Source: Candidatus Omnitrophota bacterium (lineage in GTDB: Bacteria; Hinthialibacterota; Hinthialibacteria; Hinthialibacterales; JAKPRU01). From it: a stretch of 47,281 bases of DNA. The stretch lies in the NCBI GenBank assembly GCA_029570205.1, contig JAKQSI010000073.1, positions 1 to 47,281 on the forward strand. The letters run 5' to 3'. The position numbers and the translations under genes were made by a program. Shown one piece after another: positions 10,900 through 20,636 of this stretch. Position 1 is the first letter of the stretch. Each line of letters starts with the position of its first letter. The notes under the pieces were generated by a model. That model made no database searches and was not told where the DNA came from. It worked only from the letters and a program-made list of their open reading frames with translations.

Positions 10900-12669
10900 A
10901 TGGACAGATATCTTCCAGGACACGACGCAATGATTTCCTGCAACGGGAAGTCCCCGGAAGATTTCCGTGCCTTGGCACAGAAAATCCTCCACTATGCCGC
11001 CAGCGGTGTCTCTCGCATTGAGTTCCTGCGTGAAATCACACGGATGCTCCTCGAATCTTCCGAATGCGACTCGGTCGAGTTTCGTGTCAAAAAAGACGAC
11101 AAGTGTTTTCGATGTGAAGCCGTATCTCCCCTTGCGCTTCCACCTGCCGTGGAGATCTCACGCCATACATCCCCCGATGAAAACGTATTGCTCGCCTGCT
11201 CCCATGAATGGACCTGGTTTGAGAAGATTTGCCGAACTGTAGCCGAGAGGCAATACACCAGCGCAAAGCCTTTTTTTACGAAACACGGGAGTTTTCGGAC
11301 CGGCAAGTTGGACGATTCTCTGTCTCATCTCGCGGCGCTTGGTATTGCCGGTGTGGCAGGATCGTGCGGCCTCAGTGGGGATTACCGATCATTGACTGTT
11401 ATCCCGCTGGTGGCCGGCGAGGACACCATCGGACTTCTGGCGCTGAAGAGCAAGAGCGTTGATCGCTTTGACGAAAATGAAACGGCCGTTTACGAGAATC
11501 TGGCACAGACCCTCGGATTGGCCCTGGCAAGTCAACAAGATCATGTCACCCTGCGTGAGCGGGTAAAGGAATTGACATGTCTGTACAGCCTTGCTCAACT
11601 CGCCGAGCGTCCCCATGTCACCCTGGATGAGATTCTTCAGGGCATCGTGGAACTTCTGCCGCCTGCGTGGCAGTATCCGGAGATTACAGCCGCACGCATC
11701 ATTCTGGATGGGCGTGCGTATTCGACACCCAACTTCCAAAAGGCTGTTCACGTTCAGTCCAGCGATATTGTCGTGGAGGGTGAACCACGCGGCGTGATTG
11801 AAGTCATGTATAGCGAGGAGCGGATTGAACTGGATGAAGGACCTTTTTTGAAAGAGGAGAGAAGCCTGATCAACACACTGGCAAGGCAAATCGCGCTCAT
11901 CATCCGGAAACGGCAGGCAGATGAGGACAGGGCACATTTGCAAGAACAGCTGCGCCATGCGGATCGGCTAGCGACAATCGGCCAGCTGGCCGCCGGTGTC
12001 GCCCATGAGTTGAATGAACCCCTGGCGAGTATCCTTGGATTCGCTCAGCTTGCCGAGAAACATCCCTGTCTTCCGGACCAGGTCTCGAAGGACATTCGTC
12101 GCATTGTGACCACGGCGTTGTATGCGCGTGAAATCGTGAAAAAACTGATGTTATTCGCCCGTCAGACACCGCCACGCACAATACCCGTCAATCTGAACAA
12201 AATTGTGGCCGATGCGCTGGGCCTGCTGGAATCCCGCTGCGCCGAAAACGATATCATGGTCATGCAACATCTATCCGCCGATCTTCCCGAAATCACAGCC
12301 GATCCGTCGCAGATCCATCAGGTTCTGATCAATCTTGCGGTCAATGCCATTCAGGCCATGCCGAACGGTGGAACGCTCACAATCGGCACACAGGCAGAGA
12401 ATGACTGGGTGATTCTTACCGTACAGGATACCGGAGTCGGGATGACCCGGGAGGTGCTCCGACAACTGTTTATACCCTTTTTCACAACTAAAGATATCCA
12501 TGAAGGCACCGGACTCGGCCTTCCCGTAGTCCATGGAATTGTGACCTCACACGGGGGAAAAATTCATGTTCAGAGCGCTCCGGGAAAGGGGGCGCGGTTC
12601 GAAATCCGATTCCCGGCGCCCGACCGGTCGCAGGATAACGATCACAATGCCGATCCCCTCGTCATCTGA
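10900..12669 (+). CDS. Soluble GAF-domain sensor histidine kinase (NtrB-like)
   Basis: Autophosphorylates on His and passes the phosphate to the adjacent NtrC-type regulator. 589 residues with no membrane segment, so it senses a cytoplasmic signal. About 20-345 is divergent sensor sequence with GAF-like stretches (SLTVIPLVAGEDTIGLLALK near 165-183; a second repeat near 240-345). The dimerisation/phosphoacceptor helix reads GQLAAGVAHELNEPLASILG with His369. The ATPase domain shows the N-box (Asn482 in NLAVNAIQAMPNGG), DTGVGM (510-515) and GTGLGLP (536-542). The start is uncertain: an in-frame ATG at 10930 is also possible. Its 3-prime end overlaps the regulator by 23 bases, indicating translational coupling. 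It lies directly upstream of a sigma-54-dependent redox operon, its probable target. Confidence 0.88.
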   Translation: MDRYLPGHDAMISCNGKSPEDFRALAQKILHYAASGVSRIEFLREITRMLLESSECDSVEFRVKKDDKCFRCEAVSPLALPPAVEISRHTSPDENVLLACSHEWTWFEKICRTVAERQYTSAKPFFTKHGSFRTGKLDDSLSHLAALGIAGVAGSCGLSGDYRSLTVIPLVAGEDTIGLLALKSKSVDRFDENETAVYENLAQTLGLALASQQDHVTLRERVKELTCLYSLAQLAERPHVTLDEILQGIVELLPPAWQYPEITAARIILDGRAYSTPNFQKAVHVQSSDIVVEGEPRGVIEVMYSEERIELDEGPFLKEERSLINTLARQIALIIRKRQADEDRAHLQEQLRHADRLATIGQLAAGVAHELNEPLASILGFAQLAEKHPCLPDQVSKDIRRIVTTALYAREIVKKLMLFARQTPPRTIPVNLNKIVADALGLLESRCAENDIMVMQHLSADLPEITADPSQIHQVLINLAVNAIQAMPNGGTLTIGTQAENDWVILTVQDTGVGMTREVLRQLFIPFFTTKDIHEGTGLGLPVVHGIVTSHGGKIHVQSAPGKGARFEIRFPAPDRSQDNDHNADPLVI

Positions 12670-14011
12670 AAAACGCTCCATCCTGGTGGTGGATGATGCT
12701 CCGAATACGCTCGAACTGCTGGAGCGAAATCTGACCTCTCAAGGGTACACGGTGTTCACGGCCCCTGGCGTGCCGGAGGCGCTTGCCATTCTCCGGTCCA
12801 CGCAAATCGATCTGGTCATCACCGATCAGAAAATGCCCAGGGTAAGCGGCTTCGATCTTGTCCGCTATGTCCGGGAAAATCTCCGGGATACCGAAGTGAT
12901 GATGATTACCGGGTATCCCTCCATTGAGGGAGCGGTAAAAGCGGTCAAGATCGGGGCGGAAGAGTATCTCGCAAAACCGTTCACGGATGAGGAATTACTC
13001 TCCGCTGTGGACCGTGCGTTCGAGAAACTGCGTGTACGCAGGTGTGAGGAGGTTGCAATGAACCACGCAACTCCCACACCCTATGGCCTGATCGGCGAAT
13101 CCGAGCCCATGCGGCAGGTCTATAAAGCCATTACCAAGGCGGCATCCACCTCGGCAACCGTCTTGATTACCGGGGAAAGCGGCACGGGCAAGGAACTTGT
13201 GGCCAGAGCGATTCATTATGGAAGCCCGCGAGCTTCCGCGTCCTTTGTGCCCGTGAACTGTGGCGGGATACCGGAGAGTCTTCTCGAGAGCGAGCTGTTC
13301 GGCTTCACAAAAGGGGCCTTTACAGGCGCGACGGAAACCCGGGCCGGGTTCTTCCAAACCGCCGATGGCGGCACTATTTTTCTCGATGAAATCAGCGAAA
13401 CCAGCTTGAACATGCAGGTAAAACTGTTGCGTGTACTCCAGGAAAAAGAAGTGTACATGGTGGGATCGAGTCGGGGACGGAAAGTAGATGTCCGAATCCT
13501 GGCATCGACAAACAAAGATCTGCCGATTCTGGTCAAGAAAGGTCTCTTCCGGGAGGATCTCTATTTCCGACTTAACGTGATTGCCATCGATCTTCCTCCT
13601 CTTCGGCAGCGGGGTGACGACATCCTGTTGTTGATCCACCATTTCGCCCGAAAAATCTCGAACGAGCTCGGCAGATCGACGCCCCGGTTTACACCCGATG
13701 CCCTTCGTGTCCTCCAGGGTTGCCATCATTGGCCCGGCAATGTGAGGGAATTGGAGAATCTTGTCCACCGCCTGGTTGTTATGACCGAAGGAGATTGCAT
13801 ACGGGTCCCCGATCTCCCTCCCTACATGCGTTTCTCGGTTCCGCACAAACCGGATTTCAACCGGACATTAGCCGAAATCGAAGCGGAATATATACGAAAC
13901 GTGCTGGCAAGCGTCGACGGAAATAAAACCAAAGCGGCCCAGATACTCGGCATTGACCGAAAAACATTGCGGGACAAGATTAAACACGGAAACCAGAACG
14001 CCGAGGATTGA
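12647..14011 (+). CDS. NtrC-family sigma-54-dependent response regulator
   Basis: Activates transcription from sigma-54 promoters after phosphorylation by the upstream kinase. The ATG at 12647 gives 454 residues, normal length. Receiver domain: acidic pair Asp16-Asp17, phosphoacceptor Asp60 (VITDQKMP), Lys110. The AAA+ domain has Walker A GESGTGKE (176-183), the sigma-54 contact loop GAFTGA (223-228) and Walker B TIFLDE (243-248), then the arginine-rich sensor region. A Fis-type helix-turn-helix closes the protein (about 415-450: IEAEYIRNVLASVDGNKTKA then AQILGIDRKTLRDKI). All functional motifs are intact. A consensus sigma-54 promoter begins 155 bases downstream, in front of the redox operon, which makes that operon the natural target. 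Confidence 0.93.
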   Translation: MPIPSSSEKRSILVVDDAPNTLELLERNLTSQGYTVFTAPGVPEALAILRSTQIDLVITDQKMPRVSGFDLVRYVRENLRDTEVMMITGYPSIEGAVKAVKIGAEEYLAKPFTDEELLSAVDRAFEKLRVRRCEEVAMNHATPTPYGLIGESEPMRQVYKAITKAASTSATVLITGESGTGKELVARAIHYGSPRASASFVPVNCGGIPESLLESELFGFTKGAFTGATETRAGFFQTADGGTIFLDEISETSLNMQVKLLRVLQEKEVYMVGSSRGRKVDVRILASTNKDLPILVKKGLFREDLYFRLNVIAIDLPPLRQRGDDILLLIHHFARKISNELGRSTPRFTPDALRVLQGCHHWPGNVRELENLVHRLVVMTEGDCIRVPDLPPYMRFSVPHKPDFNRTLAEIEAEYIRNVLASVDGNKTKAAQILGIDRKTLRDKIKHGNQNAED

Positions 14012-14166: not shown

Positions 14167-14182
14167 TGGCACATAATCTGCT
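14167..14182 (+). promoter_or_regulatory. Sigma-54 (-24/-12) promoter of the redox operon
   Basis: TGGCACATAATCTGCT matches the RpoN consensus (TGGCAC, N5, TTGCW) with GG and GC in exact register and one mismatch in the -12 block. The expected start is near 14194, about 70 bases before the first gene. Upstream, TCTACC (14104-14109) and GGTAGA (14145-14150) form a separated dyad that could be an activator site; this part is weak. A leader hairpin pairs CCGCAATCTG (14210-14219) with CAGAGTTGCGG (14229-14239). Confidence 0.8.
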
Positions 14183-14266: not shown

Positions 14267-14542
14267 ATGCCTGATGAATATCATGGTCTTTGCTCGACAT
14301 GTAATCACAGCCCGACATGTCGTTCGCGCAGTGCCCACTACGGCCCCGTGTTCTACTGCGAGGAATTCGACAGTTATACAGATGTCCTTCCCCGGGTCGT
14401 TCCACCGCCGATTTCCGCTGAATCGGAACATACGGATCAGGTCAATCGATATACGGGCTTGTGTTCCGATTGCAAAAATATGGAAAGCTGCATGTTTCTT
14501 GAACCGGAGGGGGGAGTCTGGCACTGTGAGGAGTACCGATAA
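14267..14542 (+). CDS. Small double-repeat cysteine-rich protein (metal or Fe-S site?)
   Basis: First gene of the sigma-54 operon, 91 residues, with GAGGAGAA just before the ATG at 14267. It holds two copies of one motif: GLCSTCNHSPTC ... FYCEEF (about 7-31) and GLCSDCKNMESC ... WHCEEY (about 64-90). Each is C-x2-C-x5-C, then 10-12 residues, then a Cys followed by Glu-Glu and an aromatic residue. The four Cys per repeat suggest a bound Zn or Fe-S cluster. I do not recognise a characterised family. The stop is separated by a single base from the next start, so it is co-translated with the NuoE-like subunit and probably assembles with or matures the complex. Confidence 0.8.
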   Translation: MPDEYHGLCSTCNHSPTCRSRSAHYGPVFYCEEFDSYTDVLPRVVPPPISAESEHTDQVNRYTGLCSDCKNMESCMFLEPEGGVWHCEEYR

Positions 14543-14543
14543 A

Positions 14544-15083
14544 GTGACATACGATACATACATCGCAGATTCAGAGAAGACCGGTACACAAAGGGTCGTC
14601 GATCCGGAGACTATCGGGAAAATCCTGGACAAGCATAGCCGGGATCAGGGCGCTTTGATTGCTATCCTGGAAGACATTCAAGCCGAATATGGCTACCTCC
14701 CGGAAGAAGCCCTCCGGATGGTCGGCAAGAGAACAGGACGTTCTCTTGTAGACATCTATGGAATCGCCACCTTCTACCATGCATTCAGCCTGGAACCCCG
14801 TGGAAGACATCTGATTTGCGCCTGTTCCGGAACGGCATGCCATGTTCGCGGTGCGCCGAAGGTCATTGAAGAATTCGAACGACAACTCGGGATCAAGGCG
14901 GGTCAGACCACACCGGACGGAGAGTTCACTTTCCAAACGGTTAATTGTCTGGGCGCGTGTGCGCTCGGCCCCATTGTTGTGGTGGACGGTCACTATTTCT
15001 CGAATGTAAAAACGGCCAAAGTCAAAAAGATATTGATGAGCGCCCCTGTGGAGGGCGATCGGATCGAACATGCAGTCGCGTAA
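14544..15083 (+). CDS. NuoE/HydC-like [2Fe-2S] subunit (thioredoxin-like ferredoxin)
   Basis: Electron-transfer subunit of a soluble NAD(P)H oxidoreductase. I choose the GTG at 14544: GAGGAG lies 10 bases upstream, the preceding gene ends one base before, and the protein then has a family-typical 179 residues. Longer in-frame starts lie inside the upstream gene. The helical N-terminal half has ILEDIQAEYGYLPEEALRMV and ATFYHAFSLEPRG. The [2Fe-2S] ligands follow as CSGTACHVRGA (C-x4-C) and VNCLGACALGP (C-x3-C). This is the classic NuoE (24-kDa subunit) pattern. With the next gene it forms the NuoE-NuoF diaphorase core. Confidence 0.92.
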   Translation: MTYDTYIADSEKTGTQRVVDPETIGKILDKHSRDQGALIAILEDIQAEYGYLPEEALRMVGKRTGRSLVDIYGIATFYHAFSLEPRGRHLICACSGTACHVRGAPKVIEEFERQLGIKAGQTTPDGEFTFQTVNCLGACALGPIVVVDGHYFSNVKTAKVKKILMSAPVEGDRIEHAVA

Positions 15084-15101
15084 CTCCCGGCAGGAAAGGG
15101 A

Positions 15102-18100
15102 ATGAATGCATTGACGCAACGCCTGAAATCAATCACAGACTTGAGGACGCTTCAGCAACGTCTACACAGCCGGCCGGACTCGACCATCCCAACTCTCATC
15201 ATCCCGGCAGGGACATGCGGACGCGCCAGTGGCGCGAACGATTTGATCCGTATCGCCGAACAGGTGATCTCCGAAAAACGGTTAATCGGAAAGATTCACT
15301 TGCTGGTTACCGGCTGCCATGGATTCTGCGAAGTGGAACCCTCTGTCCTGGTTGTTCCCGAAAGAACCTTTTATCCGAGAGTCGCCCCCGAAAACATGTT
15401 ACAGATTGTCGAGGCTGTGGTTCGCGGCGAGGTTGTCGAACATCTCCTTTACCGCCATCCGGATAGCGGCGCTCGGATACAAAGACAGGAAGAAGTTCCA
15501 TTTTTCAGGAAACAGGTGCGTACGATTCTCGGCCACAATGAGAACATCGATCCCACTCGAATCGAAACCTGCCTGTTGAATGGCGGTTACTCGGCCCTGG
15601 CCGATGTATTGGAGAAAAATAGCCCCCGCTGGGTGGTAGAGGAAGTAAAAAAATCCGGATTGCGTGGCCGGGGCGGTGCAGGATTCCCGACAGGCCGTAA
15701 GTGGGAGATGTTAGCCGACCAACGCAACGGGCACGGCAAGATTCTGGTGTGTAACGCCGATGAAGGCGATCCAGGAGCGTACATGGACCGCAGTGTCCTG
15801 GAAGGTAATCCCCACAGCATAATCGAAGGAATGATTATTGGAGCCTACGGGACGGGAGCCACCGAAGGAATTCTCTACGTTCGAAATGAGTATCCTCTTG
15901 CCATTCAGCATCTTCTCGTTGCGCTGAATCAGGCCCGTGAACACGGCTTGCTGGGCAACGATATTCTTGGAAACGGATTCTCCTTCGATATCCGTCTGGT
16001 GCGAGGCGCGGGAGCGTTTGTTTGTGGTGAAGAAACCGCCCTGATCCGGTCCATTGAGGGCAAAATCGGTGAACCTCGTCAACGCCCGCCCTATCCGATT
16101 CAAAAGGGAATCAACGGCAAACCGACGGCGATCAATAATGTGGAAACATGGGCCAATATCCCCGTCATTATTCGCAACGGCGCGCAGGAATTTGCCAAAA
16201 TCGGGACAAAAAATAACTCCGGCACAAAAATCTTCAGCCTCGTAGGAAAAATCAGGAACACGGGTCTTGTGGAGGTCCCCATGGGGATCACGATCCGGGA
16301 AATCATCTACGATATCGGCGGCGGGCCGGTCGGCAAGGCGAAGATTAAGGCCGTCCAGACCGGTGGACCTTCCGGGGGATGCATTCCCGCCGACAAGTTT
16401 GATCTGGCCATTGACTATGACAGTCTGGCCAATGCGGGTTCAATTATGGGATCCGGCGGCATGATCGTCATGGACGAAAACACGTGCATGGTAGACGTCG
16501 CCAGGTATTTTATGAATTTTTTGAAAGATGAATCGTGCGGAAAGTGCTTTACCTGCCGAAAAGGCACGCAACGGATGTCTGAAATCCTTGGCGATATATC
16601 GAATGGGAACGGAATGCGGGAACAACTGGATCTCCTGGAAGAACTCGCCGTGGTGGTGAAAGACACCACGATGTGCGGTCTCGGGCAAACCGCGTCCAAT
16701 CCGGTTCTCAGCGCTCTCCGCTATTTCCGGAATGAATTCGAGCGGCACATCGCAGACAAAAAATGCGACGCTTTTGTTTGCAGCAAACTGGTGGGGGCGC
16801 CCTGTCAGACCGCGTGCCCACTGGGGACCGAGGCTTGGCGTTATATTGCTCTTATCGAGAAGGGGCAATACGAAGAGGCATACCGTGTTATCCGGGAACC
16901 CAATCCATTCCCCTCTGTTTGCGCCCGGGTGTGTGATCGCAAATGCGAACAGAGATGCCGGCTCGGTACCGGTGGCGGCGACCCTGTAGCCATCCGCGCG
17001 TTGAAACGATTTGTCACCGACTACGTCGATCCGTCGGTCTACAAACCGGTAAGGATCCGGCGAAACGACGATCCCATACCCAGGGTGGCTGTTATCGGAG
17101 CCGGTCCGGCCGGTCTCTCGGCGGCGAACCGACTCTCTCTTCTCGGATATAAGGTAACGGTATTCGAAGCCGAGGAGGAACCCGGTGGAATGCTGATCAG
17201 CTGTATCCCGGCCTATCGCCTGCCTCGGGAAACCATTCGTAAAGAGATTCGCTCGCTTCTTGATGAAAATATCAGCCTGAAATGTGGAACAACCCTGGGG
17301 CGGGACTTGACCATCGACGATCTGTTCCGGGATGGTTTCAAAGCAATCTTCCTGGCAATCGGAGCCAACCGGAGCCGGCGATTGGAACTCGAAGGGGAGA
17401 CGCTGGATGGAATCTATTCGTCCATGCAATTCCTGAAAACATATAATTTGAAAGAAAGAGAACTCGCCGGTGGGCTGGTGGGTGTTGTCGGCGGCGGTAA
17501 TTCCGCTGTCGACGCCGCCAGAGTAGCCATCCGTCAGAATTATGTCGATGGGGTGACCCTTCTCTACCGCCGCACGACACAGGAAATGCCTGCTTACGCC
17601 GAGGAAGTTGAAGCCGCCCTGGAGGAGGGAATCAAACTCGAAACGCTCGTCTCACCGGTGCGAATACGCTACATCGAAACGGCGATGAAAGAGGGAATCA
17701 AGGTCGAGACTATGGTCTCGCCGGTCAAAATCCACTCGAAAGACGGTCGCCTGGTCGGCATTGAATGTATCCGGAATACACTCGGCGAACCGGATGCCGG
17801 CGGCAGACGTAAACCCATCCCCATACCGGGTACTGAATTCACCATTCCCCTGAACACATTGATCGTCGCCATCGGTGAACGTCCGGATAGCGAGTGTCTG
17901 GCCTCCATGGGACTGAAACTCGATAAAGGCGGCCGATTATGCGTTGATCCGAAGACACTCCAAACGAATCGAGAGGGCGTATTTGGGGGTGGCGACCTGG
18001 TGACCGGCCCCTATACCGTCGTGGATGCCATTGCCGCCGGTCGACGAGCGGCAGCGTCCATCGACCGATATCTCCAGGGTGCAGAATCCGCGAAACTGCC

Positions 18101-18353
18101 TGCTTCGAGACTGCCGGAGGTATTTATTGAACCGCCTGTATTCGACGATGAAGAGCAGGGCGAATTGACAAGGGCAGAACCTCCCACCCTCCCCATTGTC
18201 TTAAGAAACAAGAGTTTTGCAGAAGTAGAGGGTGTCTTGTCCGTACAGGATGCAACTAGAGAAGCGAGAAGATGCCTGAGATGCGATCTCGAATTCACCC
18301 GGCCGAAACACAACTCCGTTGATTGTGGTGCAGCAGAAGGAACACCGGCATGA
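15102..18353 (+). CDS. NuoF-GltD fusion: NADH dehydrogenase flavoprotein joined to NAD(P)H glutamate-synthase small-subunit domain
   Basis: A 1083-residue fusion. Residues 1-125: thioredoxin-like domain with Cys39, Cys72 and Cys76 (possible [2Fe-2S]; one usual ligand not obvious). Residues 130-550: NuoF, with GLRGRGGAGFPTGRKW (187-201; FMN/NADH), NADEGDPGAYMDR, the SLBB region and 4Fe-4S ligands Cys479, Cys482, Cys485 and Cys525. Residues 555-625: a Cys-rich GltD-type double 4Fe-4S module (CQTACPLG, CARVCDRKCEQRC). Residues 660-1045: the GltD flavoprotein fold with FAD site VIGAGPAGLSAA and NADPH-type site VVGGGNSAVDAA (796-807). It therefore carries two flavin and two nucleotide sites in one chain. 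A 22-residue tandem duplication (842-863 and 864-885) sits in the second nucleotide domain. It overlaps the next gene by four bases. Confidence 0.92.
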   Translation: MNALTQRLKSITDLRTLQQRLHSRPDSTIPTLIIPAGTCGRASGANDLIRIAEQVISEKRLIGKIHLLVTGCHGFCEVEPSVLVVPERTFYPRVAPENMLQIVEAVVRGEVVEHLLYRHPDSGARIQRQEEVPFFRKQVRTILGHNENIDPTRIETCLLNGGYSALADVLEKNSPRWVVEEVKKSGLRGRGGAGFPTGRKWEMLADQRNGHGKILVCNADEGDPGAYMDRSVLEGNPHSIIEGMIIGAYGTGATEGILYVRNEYPLAIQHLLVALNQAREHGLLGNDILGNGFSFDIRLVRGAGAFVCGEETALIRSIEGKIGEPRQRPPYPIQKGINGKPTAINNVETWANIPVIIRNGAQEFAKIGTKNNSGTKIFSLVGKIRNTGLVEVPMGITIREIIYDIGGGPVGKAKIKAVQTGGPSGGCIPADKFDLAIDYDSLANAGSIMGSGGMIVMDENTCMVDVARYFMNFLKDESCGKCFTCRKGTQRMSEILGDISNGNGMREQLDLLEELAVVVKDTTMCGLGQTASNPVLSALRYFRNEFERHIADKKCDAFVCSKLVGAPCQTACPLGTEAWRYIALIEKGQYEEAYRVIREPNPFPSVCARVCDRKCEQRCRLGTGGGDPVAIRALKRFVTDYVDPSVYKPVRIRRNDDPIPRVAVIGAGPAGLSAANRLSLLGYKVTVFEAEEEPGGMLISCIPAYRLPRETIRKEIRSLLDENISLKCGTTLGRDLTIDDLFRDGFKAIFLAIGANRSRRLELEGETLDGIYSSMQFLKTYNLKERELAGGLVGVVGGGNSAVDAARVAIRQNYVDGVTLLYRRTTQEMPAYAEEVEAALEEGIKLETLVSPVRIRYIETAMKEGIKVETMVSPVKIHSKDGRLVGIECIRNTLGEPDAGGRRKPIPIPGTEFTIPLNTLIVAIGERPDSECLASMGLKLDKGGRLCVDPKTLQTNREGVFGGGDLVTGPYTVVDAIAAGRRAAASIDRYLQGAESAKLPASRLPEVFIEPPVFDDEEQGELTRAEPPTLPIVLRNKSFAEVEGVLSVQDATREARRCLRCDLEFTRPKHNSVDCGAAEGTPA

Positions 18354-19030
18354 TTTCATTGAAGATAAACGGTCTACAGGTTTCGGTTGAAGATGGCGCC
18401 ACGATCCTTGAAGCCGCACAATTTCTGGGATTCCCAATCCCAACCTTATGTTACATGGATGGGTTGTCGCCCTATGGCGCCTGCCGTCTGTGTGTGGTAG
18501 AGATCGGCGAAGGACCGAAAGCAAAACTGGTTTCCTCCTGTACCTATCCGGTCGAGGAAGGGTTGAGTGTGCGAACCGGCTCCCTGCGCGTGCTTCGGGC
18601 ACGCAAAATGATTATCGAACTGTTGTTGGCTTCCTGCCCCCAATCCAAAACAATCCAGGATCTCGCGGCGGCTCATGGTGTCCGTCAACAACGATTTAAA
18701 CAGGAATACGAGGATTGTATCCTTTGCGGCCGCTGTGTGCGGATGTGTGAGCAACAGATGATGGCCGGGGCCATCGGATTTCGGGGACGCGGGCAGAACC
18801 GCAGCATCGGTACCCCCTTCGACGTCCGGTCCGAGGAGTGCCGGCTGTGCGGGGGCTGTATCTACGTTTGTCCCGCCTGCCAACTTCGCTGTACATACAC
18901 GGAACCGGATAAGGCCGTCTGCGGCGGATGCGCCAACCTCCCTCCGCCCTGCGCCGAGAAAGAAGCATTCAACGATAGGATGTGCTACATGGACCCCTGT
19001 GTGGCTTGCGAAATAGAAAAGCAAGGATGA
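18350..19030 (+). CDS. NuoG N-terminal-like [2Fe-2S]/[4Fe-4S] ferredoxin subunit
   Basis: 226 residues; the start ATG overlaps the preceding TGA (ATGA), so it is translationally coupled. An N-terminal [2Fe-2S] ferredoxin domain (CYMDGLSPYGACRLCVVEI, then SCTYPV) is followed by a NuoG-type helical region and two [4Fe-4S] motifs (CILCGRCVRMC near 124-134, CRLCGGCIYVCPACQLRC near 164-181). A further Cys-rich tail (CGGCANLPPPC, CVACEIEKQG) ends the protein. It matches the iron-sulfur front end of NuoG and of [FeFe]-hydrogenase HydA but stops before any molybdopterin or H-cluster domain. It most likely conducts electrons between the NuoEF module and the GltB-like protein. Confidence 0.88.
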   Translation: MISLKINGLQVSVEDGATILEAAQFLGFPIPTLCYMDGLSPYGACRLCVVEIGEGPKAKLVSSCTYPVEEGLSVRTGSLRVLRARKMIIELLLASCPQSKTIQDLAAAHGVRQQRFKQEYEDCILCGRCVRMCEQQMMAGAIGFRGRGQNRSIGTPFDVRSEECRLCGGCIYVCPACQLRCTYTEPDKAVCGGCANLPPPCAEKEAFNDRMCYMDPCVACEIEKQG

Positions 19031-19049
19031 TCGAAAGGAATCCAATACA

Positions 19050-20636
19050 ATGTCGATGACTCTCTCCCGGATTAATGCTTCCGCAGCAACGTTGACGAAA
19101 AACAGGACCGAGCACTCCATCGTTCCCGCGTCGGGCATGTGCGTCACCTGCGTAGACGGCTGCATCGGGATGTGTGAAATCGGAAAATCCGCGTACCGTG
19201 GCCATGAGGTCATTTACCCGCAACCGTTCGGGGTGATCACCACGGCAGCGGAGAAGACGTATCCCGTTGACTATTCACACTTCAATATCATGGGCAGCGC
19301 GGCCGGCGCGCATGGAATGGAAGCCGACAGCGATAAAGCCATTTTCCCGGCCGTGAACCTTGAGGTCGTGTTCGGTCACGACAACGGGATCCGGTTCCGC
19401 CGTCCGTGGATTATCCCGGGGGTTGGGTCAACCGACGTGGCCAAGAACAACTGGGAGGGCCTGGCGATTGGGGCGGCTCTGGCGGGAACGGGTTTGACTA
19501 TCGGTGAAAATGTAGTCGGCATGGATATGCAGGCGGTCATCAACGATCGGGTGATCGACACCGTGGACCTGAAACGCCGGGTGAAACTCTATAAGGACCA
19601 TCAGCGGGACGGCTATGGCGCCGTTATCGTGCAGGCAAACATTGAAGACACGCGGCTTGGGGCGCAGGAATATGCGATTGAAAAACTCGGGGTGGAGTGC
19701 GTGGAACTCAAATGGGGTCAAGGCGCAAAAAATATCGGCGGTGAGGTAAAGATTCGCGATCTCAAGAAAGCACAGGTACTTTACGAGCGCGGCTACATTG
19801 TTCTTCCGAATCCGACTGATCCGCGTGTCATCGAAGATTTCCAGCGCGGCTTGTTTAAAGAATTTGAGCGTCATTCCCGGGTCGGAATGGTCACGGAAGA
19901 ATCGTTCGCCCAGCGAATCGCGGAACTGCGCAAAGCCGGCGCGAAGTATATCTTTCTTAAGACCGGGGCATATCGCCCGGCGGATCTCGCGCGCGCAGTG
20001 GTTTTCGCGTCGCGGTACAAACTCGACCTTCTTACCGTGGACGGCGCGGGCGGCGGAACGGGCATGAGTCCCTGGCGCATGATGAATGAGTGGGGGATCC
20101 CCCCGGTCTATTTGCACTCGCTTCTGTACCAATACGCCAAGCGCCTTGCGGACAGAGGCGAATATCTGCCCGCGCTGGCCGTGGCGGGCGGATTCACCTT
20201 TGAGGATCAGATTTTCAAAGGGCTTGCTCTCGGAGCGCCGTTTGTGAAACTGGTCGGCATGGCTCGCGCGCCGATTGCCGCCGCCATGGTCGGTAAGACA
20301 ATCGGCCGCAGCATCGAGGATCACCAGGTTCCCGTCTATATTGAGCGTTTCGGGTGCTCCAAGGAAGAGATTTTTGTAACGGCCGGGATACTCCGCCAGG
20401 AGCTGGGCAATGAAGCGTTTGAACAACTGCCTGCCGGCGCGCTGGGCCTTTACACCTACTACGAACGTCTGGATCAGGGCTTGCGTCAACTCATGGCCGG
20501 CAGCCGCAAATTTGCTCTGAAATACATCTCACGAGACGACATCGCGGCGCTGACCCGTGAAGCCGCCGCGGTCAGCGGGATTCAGTACATCTCCGATGTG
20601 GACCGGGATGAGGTGGAGAAGATTCTGGGAAAGTAA
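19050..20636 (+). CDS. FMN-dependent glutamate synthase-like protein (GltB2-type, no glutaminase domain)
   Basis: 528 residues; AAAGGAAT precedes the ATG. It corresponds to the FMN-binding synthase domain of glutamate synthase (TIM barrel). Seen: an N-terminal Cys cluster CVTCVDGCIGMC (about 32-43), TVDGAGGGTGMSPWRMMNEWG, LAVAGGFTFEDQIFKGLALGA and the phosphate-binding GMARAPIAAAMVGK. It lacks the N-terminal amidotransferase domain of classical GltB, so it cannot use glutamine by itself, and I do not see the usual 3Fe-4S CxxxxxC block after the barrel. Whether it makes glutamate at all is open; related stand-alone forms remain functionally uncertain. As last gene of the sigma-54 operon it is presumably the catalytic partner of the NuoEF-GltD electron module. 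Confidence 0.88.
   Translation: MSMTLSRINASAATLTKNRTEHSIVPASGMCVTCVDGCIGMCEIGKSAYRGHEVIYPQPFGVITTAAEKTYPVDYSHFNIMGSAAGAHGMEADSDKAIFPAVNLEVVFGHDNGIRFRRPWIIPGVGSTDVAKNNWEGLAIGAALAGTGLTIGENVVGMDMQAVINDRVIDTVDLKRRVKLYKDHQRDGYGAVIVQANIEDTRLGAQEYAIEKLGVECVELKWGQGAKNIGGEVKIRDLKKAQVLYERGYIVLPNPTDPRVIEDFQRGLFKEFERHSRVGMVTEESFAQRIAELRKAGAKYIFLKTGAYRPADLARAVVFASRYKLDLLTVDGAGGGTGMSPWRMMNEWGIPPVYLHSLLYQYAKRLADRGEYLPALAVAGGFTFEDQIFKGLALGAPFVKLVGMARAPIAAAMVGKTIGRSIEDHQVPVYIERFGCSKEEIFVTAGILRQELGNEAFEQLPAGALGLYTYYERLDQGLRQLMAGSRKFALKYISRDDIAALTREAAAVSGIQYISDVDRDEVEKILGK

Follow-up and report, generated by a model that had tools for sequence, protein, structure and literature searches.

A conserved Bfu-type operon with a GltB-like flavin barrel as a candidate for ammonium-dependent glutamate formation in anaerobic bacteria

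Which reaction could be served by a complex that joins a NuoEF-type NADH core with parts resembling glutamate synthase? This question is raised by a five-gene operon in a DNA stretch of 47,281 nucleotides (contig JAKQSI010000073.1 of the Candidatus Omnitrophota assembly GCA_029570205.1; this whole stretch is called the window). The operon encodes a small cysteine-repeat protein, NuoE, a fusion of NuoF with GltD, a NuoG-like protein corresponding to the N-terminal part of NuoG (NuoG-N) and a GltB-like barrel that binds flavin mononucleotide (FMN). Our analysis leads to a candidate function: with evenly balanced confidence we read the products as a soluble Bfu-type complex that feeds electrons from NADH together with ferredoxin (or NADPH) into ammonium-dependent glutamate formation. 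The parts of this reading differ in weight, as a Bfu-type architecture with a GltB-type third module is very probable and glutamate or 2-oxoglutarate chemistry at the barrel is slightly favoured.

Scans of the window for open reading frames, Pfam and NCBIfam families located all five genes where an earlier note, made from the sequence, had placed them. The position it gave to the operon holds, apart from the start at 14267, which is one base early. The features of the locus are as follows:

10900 to 12669, + strand: GAF-domain histidine kinase, likely the sensor of the operon (Pfam HisKA, HATPase_c and GAF; a homologue lies upstream in most loci with enough flank)
12566 to 14011, + strand: NtrC-type sigma-54-activating response regulator (Pfam Response_reg, Sigma54_activat, HTH_8)
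14167 to 14181, + strand: sigma-54 (-24/-12) promoter TGGCAC-N6-TGC, the sole exact match in the window
14268 to 14542, + strand: small protein with two GLCxxC...C...CEE(F/Y) cysteine repeats (open reading frame)
14544 or 14526 (GTG start) to 15083, + strand: NuoE, BfuC/HydC-like, [2Fe-2S] (PF01257, E 4e-48)
15102 to 18353, + strand: NuoF-GltD fusion, 1083 amino acids (aa) (Pfam Complex1_51K, NADH_4Fe-4S, Fer4_20, Pyr_redox_2)
15102 to 16781, + strand: NuoF part, fusion aa 1-560, BfuB/HydB-type FMN/NADH subunit (solved-structure match 7t2r_B, Cys/His ligands)
16782 to 18353, + strand: GltD part, fusion aa 561-1083, with Fer4_20 clusters and FAD and NADP(H) Rossmann domains (Pfam)
18350 to 19030, + strand: NuoG-N, BfuA type 2-like, 226 aa, with [2Fe-2S], two [4Fe-4S] and an 8-Cys C-terminal tail (Pfam Fer2_4, Fer4)
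19050 to 20636, + strand: GltB-like FMN TIM barrel, 528 aa, with an N-terminal CxxCxxxCxxxC (PF01645, E 1e-13)

The kinase and the regulator belong with the operon. No Pfam or NCBIfam family matched the small cysteine-repeat protein. In line with the earlier description of a NuoG-like protein without H-cluster and a barrel without glutaminase, Pfam gave only Fer2_4 and Fer4 for NuoG-N, with no H-cluster or molybdopterin domain, and PF01645 as the sole match of the barrel, in which neither a glutaminase nor a GXGXG domain nor an NCBIfam family was found.

For the core of the complex, the best solved match of the NuoF half is HydB of the bifurcating NiFe hydrogenase from A. mobile (7t2r_B, E 2.8e-199), which ranks above complex I. 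The B1 cluster cysteines C479, C482, C485 and C525 are invariant. In Bfu enzymes, an unusual B2 cluster is bound by C438, C/T476, H525, C531 and C536, and its histidine is reported to be absent from non-bifurcating homologues (Schut et al. 2022, PMC9304861). The equivalent residues of the window protein are C462, S500, H549, C555 and C560; apart from position 500, which is mostly Ser/Thr, they are present in 84/84 sequences. The four cysteine ligands of NuoE are likewise conserved (55/55), and most of 104 NuoG-N sequences share 21 cysteines; the ligand sets for the [2Fe-2S] and both [4Fe-4S] clusters are retained, as is the 8-Cys tail. Cysteine conservation, Pfam and the best solved match of NuoG-N (9mqx_A) together identify the two partners by which Bfu enzymes are recognized, a BfuC with [2Fe-2S] and a BfuA with [2Fe-2S] and two [4Fe-4S]. 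A BfuA of this make-up is Type 2 of Schut et al. (2022, PMC9304861). From these sequence features, an assignment of NuoE/NuoF as the predicted core of the HydABC-like Bfu electron-bifurcating family is well supported, and the tail of NuoG-N suggests a putative wire to the barrel. The HydB match, the B2 ligands and the constant operon support the proposal that several subunits form a conserved NAD(P)H complex of bifurcating type. The earlier note had considered bifurcation as in NfnAB or HydABC. The HydBC/Bfu core stands on the match to 7t2r_B and its mechanism fits better, because the solved structures that come nearest are those of HydB/BfuB and Nfn-Bfu/StnC proteins; the NfnAB-type bifurcating FAD was discarded as a model. 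As a side observation, the NuoE of the window is without the C-terminal zinc-ribbon-like extension of about 125 aa that most relatives bear, including its congener L016.

How does the second nucleotide-binding module fit to this core? The B3/B4 ferredoxin domain is not found in the window NuoF, and it is present in 30/82 rows of the BfuB tree, mostly from the same operon family. In L017 and L018, which share order and class with the window, NuoF has 616 aa and ends in two [4Fe-4S] ferredoxin motifs; in the window and a congener, GltD begins directly after C560, at the position of the ferredoxin domain. Since many close relatives retain that domain, GltD is best read as a putative NADPH/FAD substitute for the two-cluster ferredoxin domain. 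The exchange has happened repeatedly: parsimony on the BfuB-core tree counts 13 changes of tail state, of which 7 or more fall on supported branches, and a topology with all GltD forms in one clade is rejected (approximately unbiased test, p-AU 4e-21). The best solved matches of GltD are the Nfn-Bfu protein NfnA (9n5u_A), StnC (8oh5_C) and 9bov_A, and its cluster cysteines and nucleotide-binding motifs are invariant in 25 fusions. Judged from the position of GltD and the exchangeable tails, NADP(H) most probably takes the part that ferredoxin has in the sister enzymes.

The same replacement can be read differently. Without B3/B4 and a ferredoxin site, the fusion form may simply be a reductase (or transhydrogenase) that accepts NADH and NADPH, and its core would collect electrons for the barrel without bifurcation. 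The potentials of NADH and NADPH are close, and NuoF homologues that do not bifurcate exist (PMC9304861). We consider this a serious possibility that falls short of even weight, as the B2 ligands, including the histidine that non-bifurcating homologues lack, are invariant in the fusions too and fusion and ferredoxin forms are interleaved on the tree.

Besides, several observations concern related modules. The GltD domain carries a small in-frame tandem duplication at approximately 17627-17735 of the window (EGIKLETLVSPVRI / EGIKVETMVSPVKI), which is also present in the congener L004. Contig C8 (L015:6122-12657) of the same genome encodes a second NuoE / NuoF-GltD fusion (1052 aa), here among HoxU-, HoxY- and HoxH-like genes of a [NiFe] hydrogenase operon; the same NADPH module is therefore attached to a hydrogenase-type core. 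A third NuoF system on contig C113 (L020:3364-9547) is of the HydB type with a ferredoxin tail, stands beside a NuoG-like subunit and also includes, by sequence, a Ni-hydrogenase large subunit.

Is the barrel a part of this complex or a mere neighbour? Relatives of the barrel are encoded in at least 570 genome-contig stretches. The best 80 of these come from Planctomycetota, Zixibacteria, KSB1, Latescibacterota, Ignavibacteriota, Bacteroidota, Acidobacteriota, several deltaproteobacterial lineages, Spirochaetota, Coatesbacteria, Eisenbacteria, Neomarinimicrobia, Armatimonadetes, Riflebacteria, Wallbacteria and Firmicutes, and the operon is common to anaerobes from more than 12 bacterial phyla. 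In most relatives NuoG-N and the barrel are about 75-85% identical to those of the window. Within 6.5 kb of the barrel, NuoF was found at 92/101 loci of the closer group, and the other loci are mostly truncated. Sampling of the NuoEF-linked group (at least 66% identity) gave 12/294 genomes for the phylum of Scalindua, 13/247 for that of Desulfobacteraceae and 3/120 for the Neomarinimicrobial phylum. In a survey of relatives, as the earlier note had asked for, all loci with sufficient flank show the gene order NuoE - NuoF - NuoG-N - barrel. Because of this constancy, chance clustering of the genes is excluded, and the set is not a one-off. It is nevertheless as unfamiliar as the note had held, since literature searches, in which most subscription papers were beyond reach, found no description of the exact gene set.

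The regulatory part is conserved as well. Kinase and regulator usually precede the operon, with regulator homologues 58-71% identical to that of the window, and in more than half of 80 loci the small cysteine-repeat gene separates the regulator from NuoE. The sigma-54 site lies about 86 base pairs 5' of the first gene, and an exact TGGCAY-N6-TGC site occurs upstream of NuoE in 28/81 loci, compared with 0.94 expected from shuffles. Promoter match, activator and enrichment all agree with the sigma-54-driven operon proposed at the outset.

This constancy bears on a further alternative, namely an Stn/Nfn-like transhydrogenase whose barrel gene is merely co-transcribed. NuoE, NuoF, GltD and NuoG-N are indeed the parts of StnABC (PMC10482914). 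Yet the barrel, with about 80% identity across phyla, is the most constant neighbour and is retained where GltD is absent, GltD sits on BfuB here and on BfuA in StnC, and the 8-Cys tail of NuoG-N is a likely docking wire. We therefore regard this explanation as improbable, and the idea of a system that is mainly a transhydrogenase found no support. In the favoured reading as a Bfu-type complex, the barrel is the likely site of the third substrate.

What this substrate may be has to be judged from the barrel itself and its surroundings. The barrel was aligned to GltB by MAFFT with bridging archaeal-type GltB sequences, because single-template hhalign to GltB covered 32 columns only. It keeps the GltB motifs, i.e. 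the SGEGGE-type Glu (E153), K221, QGAK (K227), the double Gly, K304 and GGTG, whose roles we take to be those of the active-site residues in Azospirillum brasilense GltS. The [3Fe-4S] cysteines of GltB are absent; in their stead the barrel has a CxxCxxxCxxxC at its N-terminus. Only chance-level matches came from PDB sequence searches, whether the query was the single barrel sequence or a profile. By its fold, the AlphaFold2 model (pLDDT 79, pTM 0.83, with poor active-site loops) is a member of the FMN TIM-barrel superfamily, with a VIA Z of about 25-26 and a root mean square deviation of about 3.4 across 300 residues. In Foldseek and VIA the top ranks go to alpha-hydroxyacid oxidases and IDI-2; the 50 fold matches listed contain no canonical GltS chain, an absence that excludes nothing. 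Alpha-hydroxyacid oxidases use catalytic His/Arg residues. These are not found at the GGTG strand of the barrel, and the GltB-type motifs argue against such an activity.

The genomic surroundings offer a second line of evidence. Stand-alone cousins of the barrel (57-66% identity) occur in about a fifth of the sampled Bacillota, where, of about 24 loci, 11 have glutamine synthetase (GlnA) alongside and 15 an ANTAR regulator; a complete split glutamate synthase (GOGAT) adjoins some of them. A member with 54% identity (L166) lies in the gene row glutamate dehydrogenase (GDH) - barrel - GlnA - GATase - GltB. A GDH-family gene is found within 6.5 kb at 8/96 NuoEF-linked loci, where about 0.7 would be expected by a rough estimate from two copies per 4 Mb spread at random. 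In 12/29 NuoEF-linked genomes, which include incomplete metagenome-assembled genomes, no PF01645 protein was found besides the barrel. The barrel as the sole route to glutamate was rejected, because GDH-family genes are present in nearly all genomes tested. Scalindua, whose phylum has the operon in some genomes, has been reported to induce 'GS/GOGAT' genes when ammonium is low (PMC7438415).

A Bfu-type complex may also act as a bifurcating dehydrogenase on a different substrate, such as another 2-oxo or imino acid, an amine-derived glutamate (e.g. N-methylglutamate) or an alpha-hydroxy acid. Apart from the fold ranking, this could be seen in lactate-racemase-type Lar_N genes together with TRAP transporter genes beside barrels at L098:9846-14196 (Firmicutes) and, with a weaker match and thus probably, at L112:9781-11755 (a Planctomycetota-phylum genome), in a Lar_N gene beside the barrel of L107, and in the fact that GDH-family genes also include leucine/valine dehydrogenases. 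Against the conserved GltB motifs and with GlnA, ANTAR, split GOGAT and GDH as the strongest neighbour signals, we consider another substrate unlikely.

Further neighbours and paralogues of the barrel were noted. Barrels of the 51-57% group (L106, L107, L108, L115, L116) stand behind a regulator gene, which a kinase gene mostly accompanies, and between one and three genes for haem-oxygenase-like iron redox proteins (Haem_oxygenas_2); this is another conserved set, which probably occurs in anammox-type bacteria among others. A PPDK_N-domain protein stands directly downstream of the barrel at L057:9681-11978 and at L029, L037 and L079, from several phyla. Contig C46 of the same genome (L131, L002) holds a further GltB-type set, with a 562-aa frame containing the FMN domain (VELKYAQGAKPGLGGHLLGDK) and an 877-aa frame containing the GXGXG domain.

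From the genes, domains, motifs, gene order, repeated ferredoxin/GltD exchange, sigma-54 site and genomic context we infer a possible assembly, electron path, bifurcation or confurcation, substrate and direction. NuoE (BfuC) and the NuoF half (BfuB) would form an FMN/Fe-S core that exchanges electrons with NAD(H). NADH at the NuoF FMN and a second donor, ferredoxin or, via GltD, NADPH, would charge this core, and NuoG-N (BfuA) could pass the electrons through its 8-Cys tail to a [4Fe-4S] and the FMN of the barrel, where 2-oxoglutarate and ammonium would most likely be reduced to glutamate. By pairing NADH with a donor of lower potential, glutamate might be formed at ammonium levels too low for NADH alone and without the ATP cost of the glutamine synthetase (GS)/GOGAT route.

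A thermodynamic sketch, which uses the general constant of GDH, puts the standard potential of the 2-oxoglutarate/ammonium-glutamate couple near -150 mV. With ammonium at 1-10 μM and glutamate in 100-fold excess over 2-oxoglutarate, the potential drops to about -360 to -390 mV. This is more negative than NADH (-280 mV) and close to the average of NADH and ferredoxin (-390 mV), and NADH with NADPH (-330 mV) would reach about 100 μM ammonium (carrier potentials from PMC9304861). As a hypothesis, these low-ammonium potentials may give a reason for coupling. An electron-confurcating glutamate synthase, in which NADH and reduced ferredoxin (or the swapped-in NADPH) drive the ATP-free amination of 2-oxoglutarate at micromolar ammonium, is nevertheless a tentative proposal, and that Bfu-type architecture, glutamate chemistry and energetic coupling all hold together is doubtful.

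Several points weigh against the formation of glutamate by a coupled complex. At millimolar ammonium and ordinary metabolite ratios, the reduction of 2-oxoglutarate is downhill from NADH, so that coupling is not obviously needed. The barrel is without the [3Fe-4S] cysteine motif, carries GGE in place of the GGQ of GltB (Glu for Gln) and matches PF01645 with a weak score (E 1e-13). GDH is near only 8% of the Bfu-form loci and not at the window locus, the same genome also encodes a canonical GltB (1680 aa, contig C21) and GDH, and the Lar_N/TRAP genes by some barrels could indicate a hydroxy acid as the substrate. The window form also has no B3/B4 ferredoxin clusters, a defining feature of Bfu, and is therefore classed as a variant working like a Bfu enzyme and not as a full member. 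Its N-terminal B5 site, which is variable among relatives, has three cysteines only (C39, C72, C76); StnB has likewise been reported with only one [2Fe-2S] (PMC10482914).

If such a confurcating glutamate synthase is real, the operon would represent a third high-affinity route of ammonium assimilation beside GS/GOGAT and GDH, and if coupling is real, energy-limited anaerobes could assimilate scarce ammonium without ATP. Bfu clades often have no assigned third substrate; a large multi-phylum group would gain a candidate class (glutamate / 2-oxoglutarate / ammonium) and a named operon. In addition, the repeated replacement of a ferredoxin domain by an NADPH module in a conserved complex is a natural experiment on the low-potential branch.

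In comparison to the closest known systems, the operon resembles the Type 2 Bfu enzymes (Wor-, Por- and Bam-Bfu; Schut et al. 2022, PMC9304861) in its BfuB FMN core with B1 and the His-containing B2, its BfuC, a BfuA with A1/A2/A4-type clusters, an extra third-substrate subunit and, in many operon relatives, the B3/B4 ferredoxin domain. It differs by a GltB-type FMN barrel as the third-substrate module and, in the window, by GltD in place of B3/B4; the words glutamate and Glt were not found in the main text of PMC9304861. The StnABC or Nfn-Bfu transhydrogenase (PMC10482914, PMC7483475) has the same NuoE-, NuoF-, NuoG-N- and GltD-type modules, but its GltD is fused to the NuoG subunit and its BfuB retains the ferredoxin domain, whereas in the window GltD replaces that domain on BfuB, NuoG-N stands alone with 226 aa and a barrel subunit is added. 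NADPH-glutamate synthase (GltBD) shares the GltB-type FMN barrel motifs and a GltD-type NADPH/FAD subunit; unlike GltBD, the window set has no glutaminase, central or GXGXG domain and no [3Fe-4S] motif, and electrons would enter through the NuoEFG-type core. Finally, the bifurcating NiFe hydrogenase HydABCSL of A. mobile (7t2r) provides the closest solved BfuB, with hydrogenase subunits in place of the barrel and with the ferredoxin domain present.

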